This document shows, in pieces, positions 37,605-49,935 of a stretch of 64,000 nucleotides of DNA. Each line of letters starts with the position of its first letter. Positions within the stretch are counted from its first letter, which is position 1. Where the stretch lies: contig PEAM01000008.1 in NCBI GenBank assembly GCA_002753565.1, positions 1 to 64,000 of the forward strand. Reading direction: 5' to 3'. The notes beneath the pieces are model-generated. The model was not told the DNA's origin. It searched no databases and saw only the letters and a program-made list of their open reading frames with translations. Made by a program: the position numbers and the translations under genes. The stretch is from Magnetococcales bacterium (GTDB lineage: Bacteria > Pseudomonadota > Magnetococcia > Magnetococcales > JADFYX01).

Positions 37605-39335
37605 ATGACTGAGAGTAATGAAATTTTAGAATCTGCTGTAAAGTATGAGTTTGGAGAGTACTCCGTTGAAACAGGGTTGGACCGCATTGTTGCTTATGGT
37701 GACCAGAGTGGAAAATGCCCTACTTATGTTGAGCGGACTCCCCCTTGTTCTGACGGTTGTCCGGCGGGTGAGGATATTCGTGGTTACCACAATATTATTC
37801 GTGGTATCTGGAAGAAGGATGATCCTTGGAAGGCCGCTTTCGAGCGGTTGACGGCCACCAACCCTTTTCCTGCCGTTATGGGACGTGTCTGTCCGGCCCC
37901 TTGTGAGAGCGCCTGTAATCGGCAGTATCGTGATGAGACTGTCGGAATCAACGCTGTAGAACAGGCGATTGGTGACTTTGCCAGAGAGAACAAGTTGGCT
38001 CTGCCAACTCCTCCAGCCTCTACCGGCAAGCGGGTTGCCATTGTTGGTTCCGGTCCTGGTGGCCTCTCTTGTGCCTACCATCTCCGCATGCAGGGTCATG
38101 CTGTAACTATATTTGAGCGTGATCCCAAGCTGGGTGGCATGATGCGTTATGGCATCATGGGCTACCGGGTAAGTCGAGAGGTGTTGGATCAGGAGATTAA
38201 GCGCATTCTCGATCTGGATGTCGAAGTCAAGCTGGGCGTCAAGGTGGGTGAAGAGATCTCCTTACAGGATCTTCGCGACCAATACGACGCGGTCTTCCTG
38301 GCCGTGGGTGCCCAAAAAGGCCGAGGTATTCCCATTCCGGGTGCTGAGGGTAGCAACGTAACCAATGCCATCGAATTTTTGCGTGGCTTTGAACTGGATA
38401 GAGCCAGTCATAAAGTCGGTAAACATGTGGTTGTCATCGGTGATGGTGATGTCGCCATGGATGCGGCCAGACTGGCCCTGCGTTTAGGCTCCAAAGCGAC
38501 TCTGTTGTCGGGTGTGGCGCGTGAAGAGATGAAGGCCTCTCAGATTGAGTTCGATGAAGCTCTGCAAGAGGGAACCGATATGAAGTTCATGTCGGGAACC
38601 GTAGAGGTGATTCGAGACGCTTCTGGTACCATGACCGGTGTCAAGTGTATTAAAATGGTCCGTAAAGAGAAAGGAGAGGATGGGTGGAATCATGCCATTC
38701 CTTTCTTCCGCTACAAACCGGAACCCGGCAGCGAGTTTGAACTGCAAGCAGACATGTTGGTTGCTGCTATTGGTCAGACTACCGATATGGTCGGTCTGGA
38801 TGCAGCAACCGGTGGCAAGCCTAGCCTGGATGTTGATTTTAATATGCAGGTCAAGGGGATGGAAGATGTCTTTGGTGGGGGTGATGCGGTTCAGATCAGC
38901 CTGTTGACCACAGCCATCGGACATGGTCGTAAAGCGGCTTCCAACATTGGTCGGTTTTTGGCAGGCAAAGCCCTCCCCAAACGGAACCGGGGTGATGTGG
39001 TCAAGTATGACAAGCTTAAGTCCGACTATTTTGTCGCGCAAGAGTCGCCCAAGCGCACTTTCCGCCATCCAGAAAAGGTGGAGGGAGACTGGGAAGAGAC
39101 GCTGATCGCCCTATCCCAAGAGGATGCCACCAAGCAGTCTGACCGCTGTATGAGTTGTGGCATGTGTTTTGAGTGTAACCAGTGTATGCTCTACTGTCCG
39201 CAGGAGGCGATTGTCAAATTCCGGGGTAACCCTGAAGGCGAAGTGATGTATACCGAATATCAACGTTGTGTCGGTTGTCACATCTGTGCGGAGGTCTGTC
39301 CTACCGGTTACATTGACATGGGTATGGGAGCTTAA
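37605..39335 (+). CDS. dsrL: DsrL-type flavoprotein: NAD(P)H:acceptor oxidoreductase of the Dsr pathway
   Basis: 576 aa with AGGAG nine bases upstream. N-terminal Fe-S motifs (C-S-D-G-C-P-A-G, C-P-A-P-C-E-S-A-C) precede FAD binding (V-G-S-G-P-G-G-L) and a nucleotide site (I-G-D-G-D-V-A-M-D). The C-terminal 2x[4Fe-4S] domain is C-M-S-C-G-M-C and C-V-G-C-H-I-C-A-E-V-C-P. After the nucleotide motif the GltD-type L-Y-R-R is replaced by L-S-G-V, so NADPH-selective arginines are missing. In Allochromatium DsrL passes electrons from sulfur oxidation to NAD+; the position right after dsrAB supports the same job. It could also act in the reductive direction. Confidence 0.88.
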   Translation: MTESNEILESAVKYEFGEYSVETGLDRIVAYGDQSGKCPTYVERTPPCSDGCPAGEDIRGYHNIIRGIWKKDDPWKAAFERLTATNPFPAVMGRVCPAPCESACNRQYRDETVGINAVEQAIGDFARENKLALPTPPASTGKRVAIVGSGPGGLSCAYHLRMQGHAVTIFERDPKLGGMMRYGIMGYRVSREVLDQEIKRILDLDVEVKLGVKVGEEISLQDLRDQYDAVFLAVGAQKGRGIPIPGAEGSNVTNAIEFLRGFELDRASHKVGKHVVVIGDGDVAMDAARLALRLGSKATLLSGVAREEMKASQIEFDEALQEGTDMKFMSGTVEVIRDASGTMTGVKCIKMVRKEKGEDGWNHAIPFFRYKPEPGSEFELQADMLVAAIGQTTDMVGLDAATGGKPSLDVDFNMQVKGMEDVFGGGDAVQISLLTTAIGHGRKAASNIGRFLAGKALPKRNRGDVVKYDKLKSDYFVAQESPKRTFRHPEKVEGDWEETLIALSQEDATKQSDRCMSCGMCFECNQCMLYCPQEAIVKFRGNPEGEVMYTEYQRCVGCHICAEVCPTGYIDMGMGA

Positions 39336-42490: not shown

Positions 42491-45364
42491 TCAGTTGGTG
42501 TATTTTCCGGCTATCTCTGAGAGTTTGTCGTTAAGATCGGGTACATTCTCTCTCATCCACTCTCCATAGACACGATCATGAACCTTGATATGGTCTCTAA
42601 GCCAACTGGCAACAAAGGCCGGTAGCTCGACGGCCAATACCGGGGAGTCGCTGTCGCTCTGCATGGACTGCTCGGCAAAGCGGTCCAGATCCGTGCGCAG
42701 GTCGGCGTGGTGTTTGCTATGCTCTTCTTGTCCCGGCCAGCCCAGAGTGGTATAGGCTCTCTCTTCAAAGCCAAGGTGCCAGCGGGCAAACTCGTCCATT
42801 GCATGAATAATGGGTGCAACATCCTCGTTACTGGCAACCGCCTGTTTCATGCGCGAGGAGAGGGCGAAGATGATCATGTGCTGCTCATCTATAACGGGAA
42901 TGTCCAGCATGAATTCTGGCCCCCAAAAGCTCTCTTTCTCCACCCTTTGCTGCTCTTCAGGGACCAAGTCTGAAAGTGTTTTGAACAGGGCCACCTTGTT
43001 TTTAAGGGCTTGGGCCGTTGTACCGATATCTCGGGCAAACTCTCCTGACATAGCCGACAGACCACCGGTTTTCTGCATGCTGATATCGATGGATTTCATG
43101 GCAGTGGCCACGCCATCCGAGCTGATTTTAGCGCGATCGACACTTTCAGAAATGGCGGTGCTGCTCTGAGAGGCCAAGCCAACTTTGGCAGAGGTATCTT
43201 CGACATCCGTTGCCGCCATGGCAACATTTTGCGTTACCTCACCCACACCGGCTGAAATTTCACTGGCGCTACGGGTAATCTCAGAGATTCCCAAACTGGC
43301 TTCACTCACCTGTCGGGCTACCTCATTGGTCTCTTGATTGAGCAGATCCATGGAGCCGGAGATCCCCTCCAGGTTGTGGTTCTGCTCTTCTACCGCCCGG
43401 TTGATCTCCTGGTTGCTGATATTAACATCATCGATAATCTTGACAATCTCCTCCATAGAGCTGGCAGCTTCGATGGTTTCGCTCTGGATTTCGGTGATTT
43501 TACTGGCGATCATCTGAGTCGCTTCTGATGTTTGGCGGGCCAACTCCTTAACCTCATTGGCGACCACGGAGAACCCCTTGCCTGCATCACCGGCCCCCGC
43601 TGCCTCGATGGAGGCGTTGAGTGCCAACATGTTGCTCTGATTGGCAATATTTCGAATGACATCAACCACCTGGCCGATCTCCTTGGCGGAAACAGCCAGT
43701 TTTTCCATAACCAAAGAGGAGTCAGATACCCGTCGATTGGCAACCTGAGATCGCTCACCAGCCGTTTGACAGCGCTTTTGGACCTCGGCCAGAGAGTTGC
43801 TCATAACCTGAATGGAAGAGGCGACCTCTCGGACATTTTCGGTCATCCGCTCTGTGGCATCGTTAACGGCACCAATATTGGAACTGGCCTCTTCTGTGGC
43901 TGAGGCGACGGTGCTGAGGTTGGTTGAGGCCTCTTCGGCTGCGGCAGAAATCATGGTCATGTTATTGCTAAGATTTTCAGCGGCCTGGGCAACAACGGTC
44001 AGGCTGCTGGTTGACTCATTGGCATTGGAGGAGACCTCTTCCATGCTAAAGCTCAACTCGATGGCGGCCTGTGCCGAAGCGTTGGTCTCTTTGGTGACGC
44101 CGTTGGCCTGGGTCTCCATCTCTTTGGCAACCTGGGTCATGATGGTGGAGAAAGAGGCCAGAGCATTGGCGTCGTTGATGATGCCAACAACGATGAGGTT
44201 TAACTGCTGGCTCATCTGCTCCAAGGCACGGACCAGCTCACCAATCTCATCTTGACTTTCACTGGAGATATGAGCGGTTAAATCTCCCGCCGCCACCTGC
44301 TTGGCAAAAGCCACACCCTGACTCAACGGTTTGGTAATACTCTGGGTGATGAACCGGCCAAAGAGAACAGAGAGCAAAAGACCCAAAATGGCAAAGATAA
44401 TATTAAGGGTAACCATCTCGGCGTTGAGAGATTCAATCTGTGCTACATCCCCCTTCAAGAGGGTGCGTTGACTCTCTACCATGCCACTCAGCAGGCTGGC
44501 AATTTCAGCCCCCCTGGGGGCCGCTTGGGTTTTCAACCAGTGGTTGGCTAAATTCCAGTCACTCGCACCTCGAAGGGCAAAAAGCTTTTCGGTGAGTGGT
44601 ACAAAAAGGGTGCGAGCTTTTTCAAAGCGGTGGAAAGCGGCCTCTTGCTCGGCGGTCATCCGGGTCAGGTCACGGCTTAAATCCTGAAAACGGCTCTCAT
44701 TGATTTTCCACTGAACAGAGTACTCACTCTTGTACGACTCTTTTCCTGAGATCAGGTAGGTTCGCAGGGCGGTCAGACTCAGGCCAAAGCTACCATAGAC
44801 ATCGGCAATCTCCGCCAAGAGATTTTTTCTCTCCATTCCGGCCGGTAGCCCCGCCTCATCCTTAAGAAGCTGGCTCAGGCTGTCGGCCATGGTGTCGGCA
44901 AGAGGAGACATCTCTTTATAGAAAAGATCCAAGGCAGGAATATTGGCCTGCTCATGGGCTATTTTTTCGATGCGATCCTGGATGGATTCGAACTCACTTA
45001 AGATTTGAGTGATTTGTACCAATCTCTGACGGTTTTCCTCGTCAGTCCAGGTTTGGGAAAGGTCATCCAGTTGCGCCTTTTTTTCGTGGATATGTTGCCA
45101 GGCAACCGCTCTAACTTTTCTGAACTGATCGTTGGGGATCAGCATCCATCCCCGTAATCCTGCCAAGGCCGCCTGTGTCTCTTTTTCGATGGCTGTGCTG
45201 GCTAAAACCGTTGGAACACGGGTTTGAACCATGCGGGTGTTGAGAGTAGCTATCTGGCTGAGCTCAAATAGATTTATACCGACAATAAAGGCGATTATCA
45301 GAGTGAGAAAGCCAAAACCCACAACAAGTTTGGCACCAATTTTAAGATTATTAAACGTATCCAT
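42491..45364 (-). CDS. Methyl-accepting chemotaxis protein with C-terminal bacteriohemerythrin domain
   Basis: 957 aa from ATG 45364; the longer frame lacks a binding site. TM1 at about 13-35, a helical periplasmic sensor of 4HB/HBM type (about 36-305), TM2 at about 308-330, HAMP (about 332-385) and a long signalling hairpin with the tip [12 protein letters not shown] and [11 protein letters not shown] hemerythrin domain begins near 814 with all ligands: H829, H863-x3-E867, H882-x3-H886, H925-x4-D930. A di-iron site at the cytoplasmic tip, as in DcrH, would sense oxygen or its redox effects and steer aerotaxis. It is 19 bases after a secreted repeat protein on the same strand. Confidence 0.92.
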
Positions 45365-45383
45365 TATTCTGTCCCACAGCCCA

Positions 45384-46286
45384 TTATTGAATCGTCCGCA
45401 CTCGGGACAAAAGGAGTTGTACCAGTTGATTGACATGAGAAGGTGATTTGCGGCCAGGATAGTTGTTGGCAATATCCTGCTCTTTACCGGCCTGGATAAC
45501 CAACTGTTTCAACTCGGCGAGTGTCAAAGCTGCCAGGTTATAGACATGGCCAGGGCCAATTCTTTTTCCCTCGCCCTCTTGGGAAAGGGTTAATATGTTC
45601 AGTTTTCGTCTGTGGCTGAGTTGCTCAATTTCAGCAAAGAGAAGTTGGAGTTGCTGATAGATCTCACCAGGACGTTTTTTGCGTACGAGAGGAGGCAGCT
45701 CCTGTGGTTTGCCATCATCGAGAATACGCACATACTGCCGAGCAACCGAAAGGAGTTGGTAGACCTCTGAGGGGGAGATTTTTGTTGCCAGCATGACATC
45801 CAGCTTGGCGCTCACCTCCATGGCTAAAGAGAGGACATCGGTCGGTTTTTTGTTCCAATCCAGTGGTGGGGTCGAGACAGAAGGGATACCGCCCATCCTG
45901 TCGGCCACCAACTGCAGTTGATCGGTAGCCAGGGAGACCAGCTGAAAAACATCGGTTGGTTTGGGGGTGCCGGTTGGGGGTATGGCTCTTGCGTGGGGGA
46001 ATTGGACCATCTCCAGTGTAAACCGGTTGGCCCGCTCCAGCAGGCCCCAGCGCACTAAGCTGTAGACCTCTCGAGGAGTGGCACCAGAAACAGCGATAAC
46101 CGGGGTGGATTGACAGGATTTTCCCATCTCTTCACACATCAACGAGACCAAACCATCCAGAGCGCTTAATTTTTGATAGACATGGGGCGGTTTGATTGGG
46201 GCAGATAGTCCTGTTCCAGAGAGCAGTAGTGAGAGGGGAAGGATAAGGATCAACAGTGCTTTGAAAAGTATTTTTTCTCTTTTCAC
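45384..46286 (-). CDS. Secreted protein with eight P-x-x-V-[YF] repeats, 300 aa
   Basis: GTG 46286 is chosen: GAGG lies six bases upstream and it yields a clean signal peptide (M-K-R-E-K then L/I-rich to about 29, S-G-T-G-L-S-A). The mature part consists of eight units anchored by P-x-x-V/I-[YF] at residues 33, 71, 110, 148, 172, 206, 245 and 282, usually 34-39 residues apart, each followed by a leucine-rich helix (x-L-x-x-L). The units look like a helical solenoid. Only two cysteines, C51 and C58, occur. It is periplasmic and ends 19 bases before the hemerythrin chemoreceptor, which has a periplasmic sensor; it could be the ligand-presenting partner. No family recognised. Confidence 0.75.
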
Positions 46287-46793: not shown

Positions 46794-47558
46794 TCAGAGC
46801 CTCTTCGCGGCAATTTCGGCAGCCAGTTGCACGTAGCCCTTGGCTCCCTTGGCTTTTTTATCGTACCAGACCAGGGGCTTTCCGAAGCTTTGAGATTCGC
46901 TCACCTTGATGTTTCTGGGTATGGTGGTGGTAAAGAGTTGATCTTTGAAATATTTTTTCACCTCTTGTGCCACCTGTTGTGTCAACCTGGAACGTCCATC
47001 GTACATGGTGAACACAATGCCGGCGATGGTGATCCTTGGGTTGAGTCGACGCCGGGTCAACTCAACGATTTCTACCAGTTGACTCAGCCCCTCCAGCACC
47101 AAAAATTCACAGGGCATGGGCACAATGATCTCATCTGCCATCACCAGGGCGTTGAGGGAGAGAAGGCCTAAGGAGGGGGGACAGTCTATGAGGATGAGAT
47201 CGTACTGTTTAACCGACCCCTCCATTCTCTCTTGCAGACGAAACTCCCGTCCTATTTCACTGACCAACTCAATCTCTGCTCCCCCCAGGTCCCGTGTGGC
47301 CGGAATAATGTGGGGATAGGGAGGGTAGGGGGTGACCATGGCCTCTTCGGGTGCGCAACGACCAGATATGACGTCATAGATGGAGCGGATAATCTGCTTT
47401 TTTTCAATGCCAAAGGCTGTAGAGCTGTTCCCTTGCGGGTCAAGGTCGATAAGGAGTACCCGCTTGCCCTGATCAGCAAACGCCGCGGCAAGATTGACTG
47501 CCGTAGAGGTTTTTCCCACCCCACCCTTTTGATTTGCCAGGGCAATGATTTTAGCCAT
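46794..47558 (-). CDS. parA: ParA/Soj-family ATPase
   Basis: 254 aa. The deviant Walker A is K-G-G-V-G-K-T at 11-17, Walker A' is L-L-I-D-L-D-P-Q-G-N and Walker B is L-I-L-I-D-C-P-P-S. This is the Soj/ParA layout for chromosome or large-complex positioning. No parB and no parS-like repeats are nearby; a chromosomal parAB is expected beside rsmG/mnmG, which are not in this window. An orphan ParA could instead place other cellular cargo. It follows an HD-GYP-like gene by 87 bases on the same strand. Confidence 0.9.
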   Translation of the reverse strand: MAKIIALANQKGGVGKTSTAVNLAAAFADQGKRVLLIDLDPQGNSSTAFGIEKKQIIRSIYDVISGRCAPEEAMVTPYPPYPHIIPATRDLGGAEIELVSEIGREFRLQERMEGSVKQYDLILIDCPPSLGLLSLNALVMADEIIVPMPCEFLVLEGLSQLVEIVELTRRRLNPRITIAGIVFTMYDGRSRLTQQVAQEVKKYFKDQLFTTTIPRNIKVSESQSFGKPLVWYDKKAKGAKGYVQLAAEIAAKRL

Positions 47559-47645: not shown

Positions 47646-49622
47646 TCAGCCCCAATGTTCTCCCATGGTGATGTGGCTTAGATCGGGTAGGGCCAGGAGG
47701 TCGGAGAAATCCATGATGACGTTTCCCACTTGGTTGAGGAGCAGGTCTTGAATAGGCTCCAGCTTTTTCTGGGTGTTCAGGCTTTCCAACTCTTTGGGAT
47801 CATCCCCTTCACGCAGGAGGCAAAAAACCGCTTTGGTGGTGCTGATCTCCTCCACCACCTGGATATCGTAGAACACTTTTCTGACCGGGTCGATACCGGC
47901 CTCAGCCATCATGATGCCTGTGATAGGGATGCCCCGTTTGACAAGCCAGGCCAGGGGAACACCATTTTTAACCTGCTGGACACGATCCAGGCAGTCTGCT
48001 TTTCTCAGGGCTGCGGTGGTGATCCCCATTTTTTTTAAATCGTCTGCTGTTAGCCGGTTTTCACTCCCCGGAAGTTGGACCGGCAAGTGTTTGAGTATTT
48101 TGATCCCCATTTTTTCGAGCTTTTCATGGGGTATGTTCACCCCCCGCCTGGTGAGCCGTTGAGGACTGATTCCTCCATTTTTCTTAATCAGCTCGACATC
48201 AAAATGGTAGGACTTGGCCCGGCCCATCAGGCCGGACTTCTCCAGCTCTTTCACGGTCAGCCACTCCCGCCAGGCGTCCAGCTCTATCACCTGTTTTTCC
48301 CGGATCAAAACGGTTTTGGTCAGGGTAATGTTGGCGGCTGCCAAGGCTGTTTCCGATAGATCCAGATCCAACCCTTTATCTTTACAGATCTGCTGCAGCA
48401 CCTTGAGGGATAAGCCACCGCGACGACGAATCCGCTCCATATCCATGCCAACATTACGCAGAGGGACGATAAAGTCCATCTTCTCCATCTCGTAGTAGGT
48501 GAGAATGGGGTTGGGCGGAATTTTTTTCGGTGGAAGTTTGGTAAAAATACGGTTCTCTTTCTCCCGTGGCAGGGCCATTCGGCGATTCAGGGGGAGAAAA
48601 TTGGGGTTTTGCTTTTGATAAAAACGGTGCCAGGCCGCATAGTGTTCGGGGTGGAAGTGGCCCAGTTTGGCATCGGAGTTCATGATGATCAATACTTTAA
48701 AGGCATCCAGCCCTCGCTTATAGGAGCGACTCTCCTCCAGAGCAGAGATCATGTCGGCCAGACAGGTGATCTGGATAATTTCCCGTTCATCTTGGTCCAT
48801 CTCGGCCAGCCGCTCTTTAACACTGAATTTCATGGCACGTTTGACAAAGTCTGGGTAGAGCGTCAAGCCGCCGTAACCTTTTCCCTCTACCGAGGCGTAC
48901 CACTCATGGTGCAGAAGGGCAGACATCATGATCAGGTCGGGTTTGATATCCGGCTGATAGAGCATCCGACAGCCAAAGAGGGGATGAAATTGAATCTCCT
49001 TCCACTGCTTGTTATTCAGGCGTCCCGGCCAGTTGAGGGTCTCCAGGTTGACCTTGGTTTTGCCCAGATCATGATTGAGCAGCGCCATGGCGGCCCGGAC
49101 AATTTTGTTGTCCTCCCAGCCCAACTCCCGAGCAACCGCCATCAGTTGAAAGGCGGCAATCAGGCTATGTCGGGCGGTGCTGTCATGGTGTTCGGTCAAT
49201 GCCACCAGTTTTTCTGAGGAGTCGGGGCTGAAAAGTTCTCCAATATCATCCAGGTTATCACGAATCAGCCCTTCCAACGAGTTCATATGCTGGCGATTTC
49301 TCAGGGCGGTGGCCACATCCTCCGCTTGGCTTTCGTTACTGCTGAAAATGCCATTGATCACCGAAAAGGTCTGCTCCATATACTCGACGGTCGAGAGAGC
49401 CGATTTTTCTTCGATGGGTTCGGCATGGATTGTGGTGATATCCCGCAGTTTGAGTCGTTTGAGCAGGGTTGAGGTGATGGGGGTGTAGCGGCTGACGAGA
49501 ATCGTCTGGCTTCCAGGTGCCAATACATCCTGAGAGAGCCTCATACCCTTGAGAATAGCAGGATTATCAAGTTGATATTCCGCCTCTTTTACGGTTTTTC
49601 CAGAGGTTGTTTCAGCAGGCAT
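47646..49622 (-). CDS. HD-GYP-like protein with long unknown C-terminal half
   Basis: 658 aa from ATG 49622 (AAAGGA upstream). N-terminal about 1-110 is a PilZ-unlike small domain (L-A-P-G-S-Q-T-I-L). The HD part (about 145-340) has H152, L-N-H-D184-D... as H183/D185 context in L-L-N-H-D-L-G-K, H213 (F-H-P-L-F-G), H-H-E at 238-240 and then G-K-G-Y-G-G where classical proteins have G-x-G-Y-P; A-D-M-I-S-A-L follows. The C-terminal 300 residues contain repeated short units (G-G-L-S-L, G-G-I-S-P, G-I-T, G-V-N-I-P) of unknown fold. Metal ligands look intact, so c-di-GMP or another nucleotide may be hydrolysed. Confidence 0.7.
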   Translation of the reverse strand: MPAETTSGKTVKEAEYQLDNPAILKGMRLSQDVLAPGSQTILVSRYTPITSTLLKRLKLRDITTIHAEPIEEKSALSTVEYMEQTFSVINGIFSSNESQAEDVATALRNRQHMNSLEGLIRDNLDDIGELFSPDSSEKLVALTEHHDSTARHSLIAAFQLMAVARELGWEDNKIVRAAMALLNHDLGKTKVNLETLNWPGRLNNKQWKEIQFHPLFGCRMLYQPDIKPDLIMMSALLHHEWYASVEGKGYGGLTLYPDFVKRAMKFSVKERLAEMDQDEREIIQITCLADMISALEESRSYKRGLDAFKVLIIMNSDAKLGHFHPEHYAAWHRFYQKQNPNFLPLNRRMALPREKENRIFTKLPPKKIPPNPILTYYEMEKMDFIVPLRNVGMDMERIRRRGGLSLKVLQQICKDKGLDLDLSETALAAANITLTKTVLIREKQVIELDAWREWLTVKELEKSGLMGRAKSYHFDVELIKKNGGISPQRLTRRGVNIPHEKLEKMGIKILKHLPVQLPGSENRLTADDLKKMGITTAALRKADCLDRVQQVKNGVPLAWLVKRGIPITGIMMAEAGIDPVRKVFYDIQVVEEISTTKAVFCLLREGDDPKELESLNTQKKLEPIQDLLLNQVGNVIMDFSDLLALPDLSHITMGEHWG

Positions 49623-49935
49623 GAACAAAAATCCTTTGAAGCAAAAGCGGTCATCAAACATCTGTTTTTAAAGGGAAGAATGAACGTAAAGCCATTCTGG
49701 AAACAGCCACTCCAACCAACGTAACAATCATTATATACTACAGCTTCCTGTAATCAAACCCATTATCCGGGAAAGGTCAGCAGCCCTTCTGAACTCAATC
49801 GGTGATAAGGCGACTCTCCTTTAGTATATTGTCGGTGCGGATAATAAATAATCAATAAAAGCCACCAGGTAGAAAACAGGATGATGGGGACGTACAATTT
49901 GACCCTGTGTGCGGGAGGCTGGTAAAAAAGAGGTT
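49623..49935. other. Divergent intergenic region
   Basis: 313 AT-rich bases between the HD-GYP-like gene and the SGNH gene. It contains several TATA/AATAAT-like stretches near 49730-49740 and 49840-49855 but no convincing -35/-10 pair, hairpin or gene. Confidence 0.4.

Follow-up and report, generated by a model that had tools for sequence, protein, structure and literature searches.

A predicted exported helical-repeat protein encoded beside a hemerythrin chemoreceptor in a Magnetococcales bacterium: a probable new family of periplasmic partners for membrane receptors

The window analyzed here, a stretch of 64,000 nucleotides from contig PEAM01000008.1 of a Magnetococcales bacterium, contains a gene for a repeat protein with an N-terminal export signal, followed closely on the same strand by the gene of a chemoreceptor (MCP) that carries both a periplasmic sensor and a hemerythrin domain. 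The repeat protein probably represents a new, uncatalogued family of periplasmic accessory proteins that are extracellular partners for membrane receptors, and the explanation that we consider likely is that it is a co-receptor, which would dock on the sensor of the adjacent receptor and change its signalling. The features of the pair are the following.

45384..46286, minus strand: gene of the predicted secreted eight-unit repeat protein (300 amino acids, GTG start; from the sequence and homologues)
46200..46286, minus strand: predicted signal peptide region, residues 1-29, with hydrophobic core 6-24 (hydropathy)
45387..46190, minus strand: eight helical P-x-x-[VI] units, first residues 33, 71, 110, 148, 172, 206, 245 and 282 (sequence, model and alignment)
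45365..45383, minus strand: gap of 19 bases from the repeat gene to the receptor gene (sequence)
42491..45364, minus strand: chemoreceptor (MCP) of 957 amino acids (sequence, Pfam)
44417..45271, minus strand: periplasmic sensor domain of about 285 amino acids, all-helical, with a 4HB-like front half and a CHASE3-like back half
44198..44353, minus strand: HAMP domain (Pfam)
43253..43771, minus strand: MCP signalling domain (Pfam)
42545..42925, minus strand: hemerythrin domain, cytoplasmic and C-terminal, complete in its ligand residues (Pfam, NCBIfam and motif alignment)

The repeat protein has a single hydrophobic segment at its N-terminus (residues 6-24) and no further transmembrane segment, and it is predicted by hydropathy, rather than by SignalP, to be exported and soluble. 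The N-terminal segment is present in 74 of 83 relatives, and no lipobox was found in the alignment of these 83 sequences. The mature part contains eight P-x-x-[VI] sites spaced by 24-39 residues, whereas 20,000 shuffled versions contained 0.96 on average and never more than 6. The initial annotation described eight helical units of the P-x-x-V-[YF] kind, which are borne out in the looser P-x-x-[VI] form, the strict form being present in five of them (unit 6 reads I-Y, and the motif closes with L in unit 4 and with N in unit 8). Across the aligned relatives, P is found at these eight positions in 67-83% of the sequences, with a small hydrophobic residue at P+3 in 63-99%. The 19-base spacing ahead of the chemoreceptor start and the combination of a periplasmic sensor with a complete hemerythrin domain, which the same annotation proposed, also hold. 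The receptor has two transmembrane segments by hydropathy (13-31 and 317-335), and 4HB_MCP_1 (residues 6-167), HAMP, MCPsignal and Hemerythrin all score above the Pfam cut-offs (107.9 bits for the signalling domain PF00015, with a cut-off of 34.6), the hemerythrin domain being recognized by both PF01814 and TIGR02481. Its ligand set (H829, H863-x3-E867, H882-x3-H886 and H925-x4-D930) is complete, with five His, one Glu and one Asp. The sensor domain, folded from the single sequence, gave a poor model (pLDDT 59), and its profile match to a four-helix MCP sensor in the PDB (5xua, E 0.008) is too weak to rely on.

Other genes of the window include, at 37605-39335 (plus strand), a pyridine nucleotide-disulphide oxidoreductase with Fer4_20 and 4Fe-4S dicluster domains, which we take to be DsrL-like and which would fit a sulfur-oxidising lifestyle. 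At 47646-49661 (minus strand) there is an ORF of 671 amino acids in which HD-type motifs can be made out by eye; Pfam gave no match at 1e-6, and a ParA-like gene (46794-47558) lies downstream of it.

The AlphaFold model of the repeat protein, built with 32 relatives in the alignment (mean pLDDT 86, pTM 0.82), is all-helical except for two three-residue strands. A helix begins at every one of the eight sites, and the helices are joined by loops; the model does not show the two-lobed alpha/beta fold of solute-binding proteins (SBPs). It also differs from TPR and other two-helix solenoids in having one helix per unit, and no repeat family of Pfam matches the sequence. Foldseek found no fold match in the PDB (best E 2.1) or in BFVD, no sequence relative is present in the PDB at E < 0.1, and no Pfam or NCBIfam family, those of SBPs included, scores above its cut-off. 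PexRD54_WY and EspB appeared among the sub-threshold Pfam matches and were put down to chance similarity between short helical repeats. The openly licensed papers searched contain no description of the family or of such a receptor pair, so that the earlier remark that no such described pair was known stands.

The family is not restricted to this genome. A contig scan with a single repeat protein as query found no relative; the pattern finally used was built from the kinase-linked subset, a first profile having been too diverse. Profile searches detected the family in 22 of 48 genomes of the window's class, in 32 of 398 genomes sampled from the phylum and, for the class of G384, in 22 of a sample of 369. 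A contig scan with the kinase-linked pattern added holders in Magnetococcales, Gammaproteobacteria, Campylobacterota (Sulfurimonas, Arcobacteraceae) and Nitrospirota (Candidatus Magnetomicrobium), as well as Gallionella, Thiomargarita and a Hyphomicrobiales bin. In total, 93 copies were collected from Magnetococcales, Gammaproteobacteria, Campylobacterota, Nitrospirota and other groups. Double-length forms, of about 16 units, adjoin kinases in the window's genus. Such forms lie beside kinases of the dCache type in L048, L087, L088, L089 and L215, and one is found in the same genome as the window, split over contigs C29 and C13; its parts, L044:17235-18845 and L092:1-408, are probably the two ends of one gene.

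The main evidence for a role in signalling comes from the neighbours of these genes, which were tagged with HMMs made from Pfam-verified segments and kinase N-terminal regions, replacing an earlier tagging by regular expressions that missed partners. Counted as copies and not as independent events, 86 of the 93 have an MCP, histidine kinase or GGDEF/diguanylate cyclase gene on the same strand within 250 bp, mostly overlapping or less than 20 bp away, whereas the proportion for the remaining genes of these loci is 6% (35 of 560). The partners are 25 MCPs, 56 histidine kinases and four proteins of the diguanylate cyclase type, plus L116, where the tagged neighbour is an upstream GGDEF protein and a kinase follows after one intervening ORF. 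Of the seven unpaired copies, three are at contig edges (L044, L081, L122) and two adjoin MCPs with a broken reading frame (L202, L223), which leaves two with both flanks readable and no receptor neighbour, L206 and L216. Both of these copies are intact (L206:8300-9214, L216:8001-8930) and could act on a receptor encoded elsewhere. The link between repeat protein and receptor anticipated in the initial annotation is supported by these counts and withstands the linkage check proposed there, although its restriction to chemoreceptors was too narrow, since most partners are histidine kinases.

Gene order is found both ways, the MCP preceding the repeat gene in L026-L029 and the repeat gene preceding the receptor elsewhere. 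Most of the kinase partners scanned with Pfam are dCache hybrid kinases, and one such operon examined goes on with a CheB-CheR fusion, followed by another hybrid kinase. The operons at L034:710-8538 and L037:9596-17657 consist of a repeat protein, a very large dCache hybrid kinase, a CheB-CheR fusion, which Pfam verified in L034, and then another hybrid kinase; a similar gene order is seen at many kinase-linked loci, in Magnetococcales, Gammaproteobacteria and Campylobacterota, and the operons of L037 and L045 are preceded by a gene for a CHASE3 protein.

If the repeat protein meets its receptor in the periplasm, it should track the receptor's sensor rather than its output. In a tree of 83 repeat proteins, made with a quick method, the window's protein belongs to a clade of ten with 99% support, whose members are paired with five MCPs, three kinases and two proteins of the cyclase type. 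All of these partners except those in L026-L029 share the window-type sensor, of about 280 amino acids, and the window sensor matches theirs and that of L147 with phmmer E values from 1e-5 to 1e-58. The outputs attached to this sensor are different: an MCP in the window, diguanylate cyclases in L147 and L218, histidine kinases in L217, L219 and L220, and a GGDEF-EAL protein in L221. L147, from the window's genus, is a GAF-PAS-GGDEF protein with 38% sensor identity to the window receptor, and the tail of a repeat protein lies three bases upstream of it, at the contig edge. That the sensor is kept while the output changes in the window's clade points indirectly to a contact of the repeat protein with the periplasmic sensor.

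A second type of sensor is common to L225 (a diguanylate cyclase, L225:6083-7948) and L228 (a histidine kinase, L228:4562-8188), whose outputs again differ. The region that they share (phmmer 1e-15) has several hydrophobic segments, and a repeat gene lies beside each, the one in L225 with a broken reading frame. Among 34 dCache kinases, the distances between repeat proteins correlate with those of the sensor (r 0.88), the cytoplasmic linker (0.82) and the kinase core (0.76), suggesting a modest excess of co-evolution for the sensor over the other two regions. A larger contrast obtained for the sensor in partial Mantel comparisons faded with a cytoplasmic control, in receptors limited to those with a long linker, and was discarded; more weight is placed on the retention of the sensor under changing outputs. 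The repeat proteins of L026-L029 are close relatives of the window's, but their partners have a different sensor, of 155 amino acids and four helices; the repeat gene of L027 also has, 199 bp away on its opposite flank, a gene for a GGDEF-EAL protein whose sensor is of the window type. Three further receptors (L148, L149 and L150) have the window-type sensor and no repeat neighbour.

Several known systems resemble this arrangement in part. SBPs stimulate chemoreceptors, sensor kinases and diguanylate cyclases or phosphodiesterases from the periplasm, as in the case of BctC/BctE (PMC9602780). In these systems, too, a soluble periplasmic protein is paired with diverse transmembrane receptors through their sensor domains, although those proteins belong to Pfam SBP families, whereas the repeat protein has no Pfam match above cut-off and is predicted to be all-helical, and its genes adjoin receptor genes and not transporter genes. 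In TorT-TorS and LuxP-LuxQ, a dedicated periplasmic protein acts on the sensor of a kinase (PMC8534201). The TorS sensor is all-helical and that of LuxQ is a PDC/Cache domain, and the sensors of the partners found here are likewise all-helical or dCache. TorT and LuxP are proteins of the periplasmic-binding-protein kind, whereas the protein described here is built of helical repeats, lacks a fold match and is also paired with MCPs and cyclases. QseG-QseE is another pair formed by an accessory lipoprotein and a histidine kinase (PMC12691602), comparable in that an envelope protein accompanies a kinase, although QseG is an outer-membrane lipoprotein and the repeat family contains no lipobox.

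By the co-receptor explanation, the repeat protein would dock, after export to the periplasm, on the sensor domain of the receptor encoded next to it. The docked protein, whatever the direction of its effect, would alter signalling as the carrier of a small ligand or as a sensor of some condition of the envelope. In the window receptor, this periplasmic input would be combined at one MCP with an oxygen or redox input through the hemerythrin domain, and in the relatives the same module would drive histidine kinases and cyclic-di-GMP enzymes.

The initial annotation went further and proposed a two-input receptor; in its specific form, a ligand-presenting protein and oxygen sensing would have evolved as one unit. 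The hemerythrin domain is complete in all its ligand residues, and in the window's genome a receptor of this kind is indeed paired with a repeat protein. The hemerythrin motif also aligns with that of DcrH of Desulfovibrio vulgaris, in which a hemerythrin domain likewise follows the MCP part at the C-terminus, a likeness seen in the hemerythrin domain; we know of no repeat partner gene for DcrH. However, none of the other partners scanned with Pfam has a hemerythrin domain, the window's receptor being the sole carrier among them, and G025 and G021 have related MCP-hemerythrin receptors (L149, L150), similar in their sensor, with no repeat gene adjoining. Because of these two observations, the modules are separable: hemerythrin is not part of the repeat/receptor module, and the two-input architecture is a lineage-specific combination. 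Evolution as a single unit is therefore doubtful.

A role of the repeat protein as negative regulator or chaperone of the receptor, like that of CpxP for CpxA, is rather unlikely; it would then clamp the sensor and be released or degraded under envelope stress, with no ligand involved. The evidence of pairing fits this role equally well, the overlapping genes suggest linked expression, the repeat protein resembles no SBP family in Pfam or NCBIfam, and the double-length forms beside kinases would suit a scaffold; however, the partners include chemoreceptors, which usually report ligands and not stress, and Pfam detects no similarity to families of the CpxP type. That it is an independent envelope protein, merely co-transcribed with receptor genes, is very improbable: the receptor-less copies in L206 and L216 and the same-sensor receptors that exist with no repeat gene would agree with it, but it is at odds with adjacency to three kinds of receptor output in several phyla and in both gene orders over a 6% background, and with the homologous sensors of the window's clade.

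For the family as a whole, the co-receptor explanation extends to a broader proposal, to which we give about even credence: that helical-repeat co-receptors of a new fold are widespread across phyla as interchangeable sensor partners of chemoreceptors, kinases and cyclic-di-GMP enzymes, through which one kind of extracytoplasmic signal could be directed to motility, gene expression or c-di-GMP, joined in this bacterium with oxygen sensing. Many bacterial receptors have no known ligand and, should such a family of periplasmic partners have gone unnoticed, the true signal of these receptors would escape assays run on the sensor domain alone. Sulfurimonas, Thiomargarita and Gallionella live by sulfur or iron oxidation and, since the family is found in magnetotactic bacteria as well as in these sulfur- and iron-oxidising taxa, it may bear on how such organisms find redox gradients.
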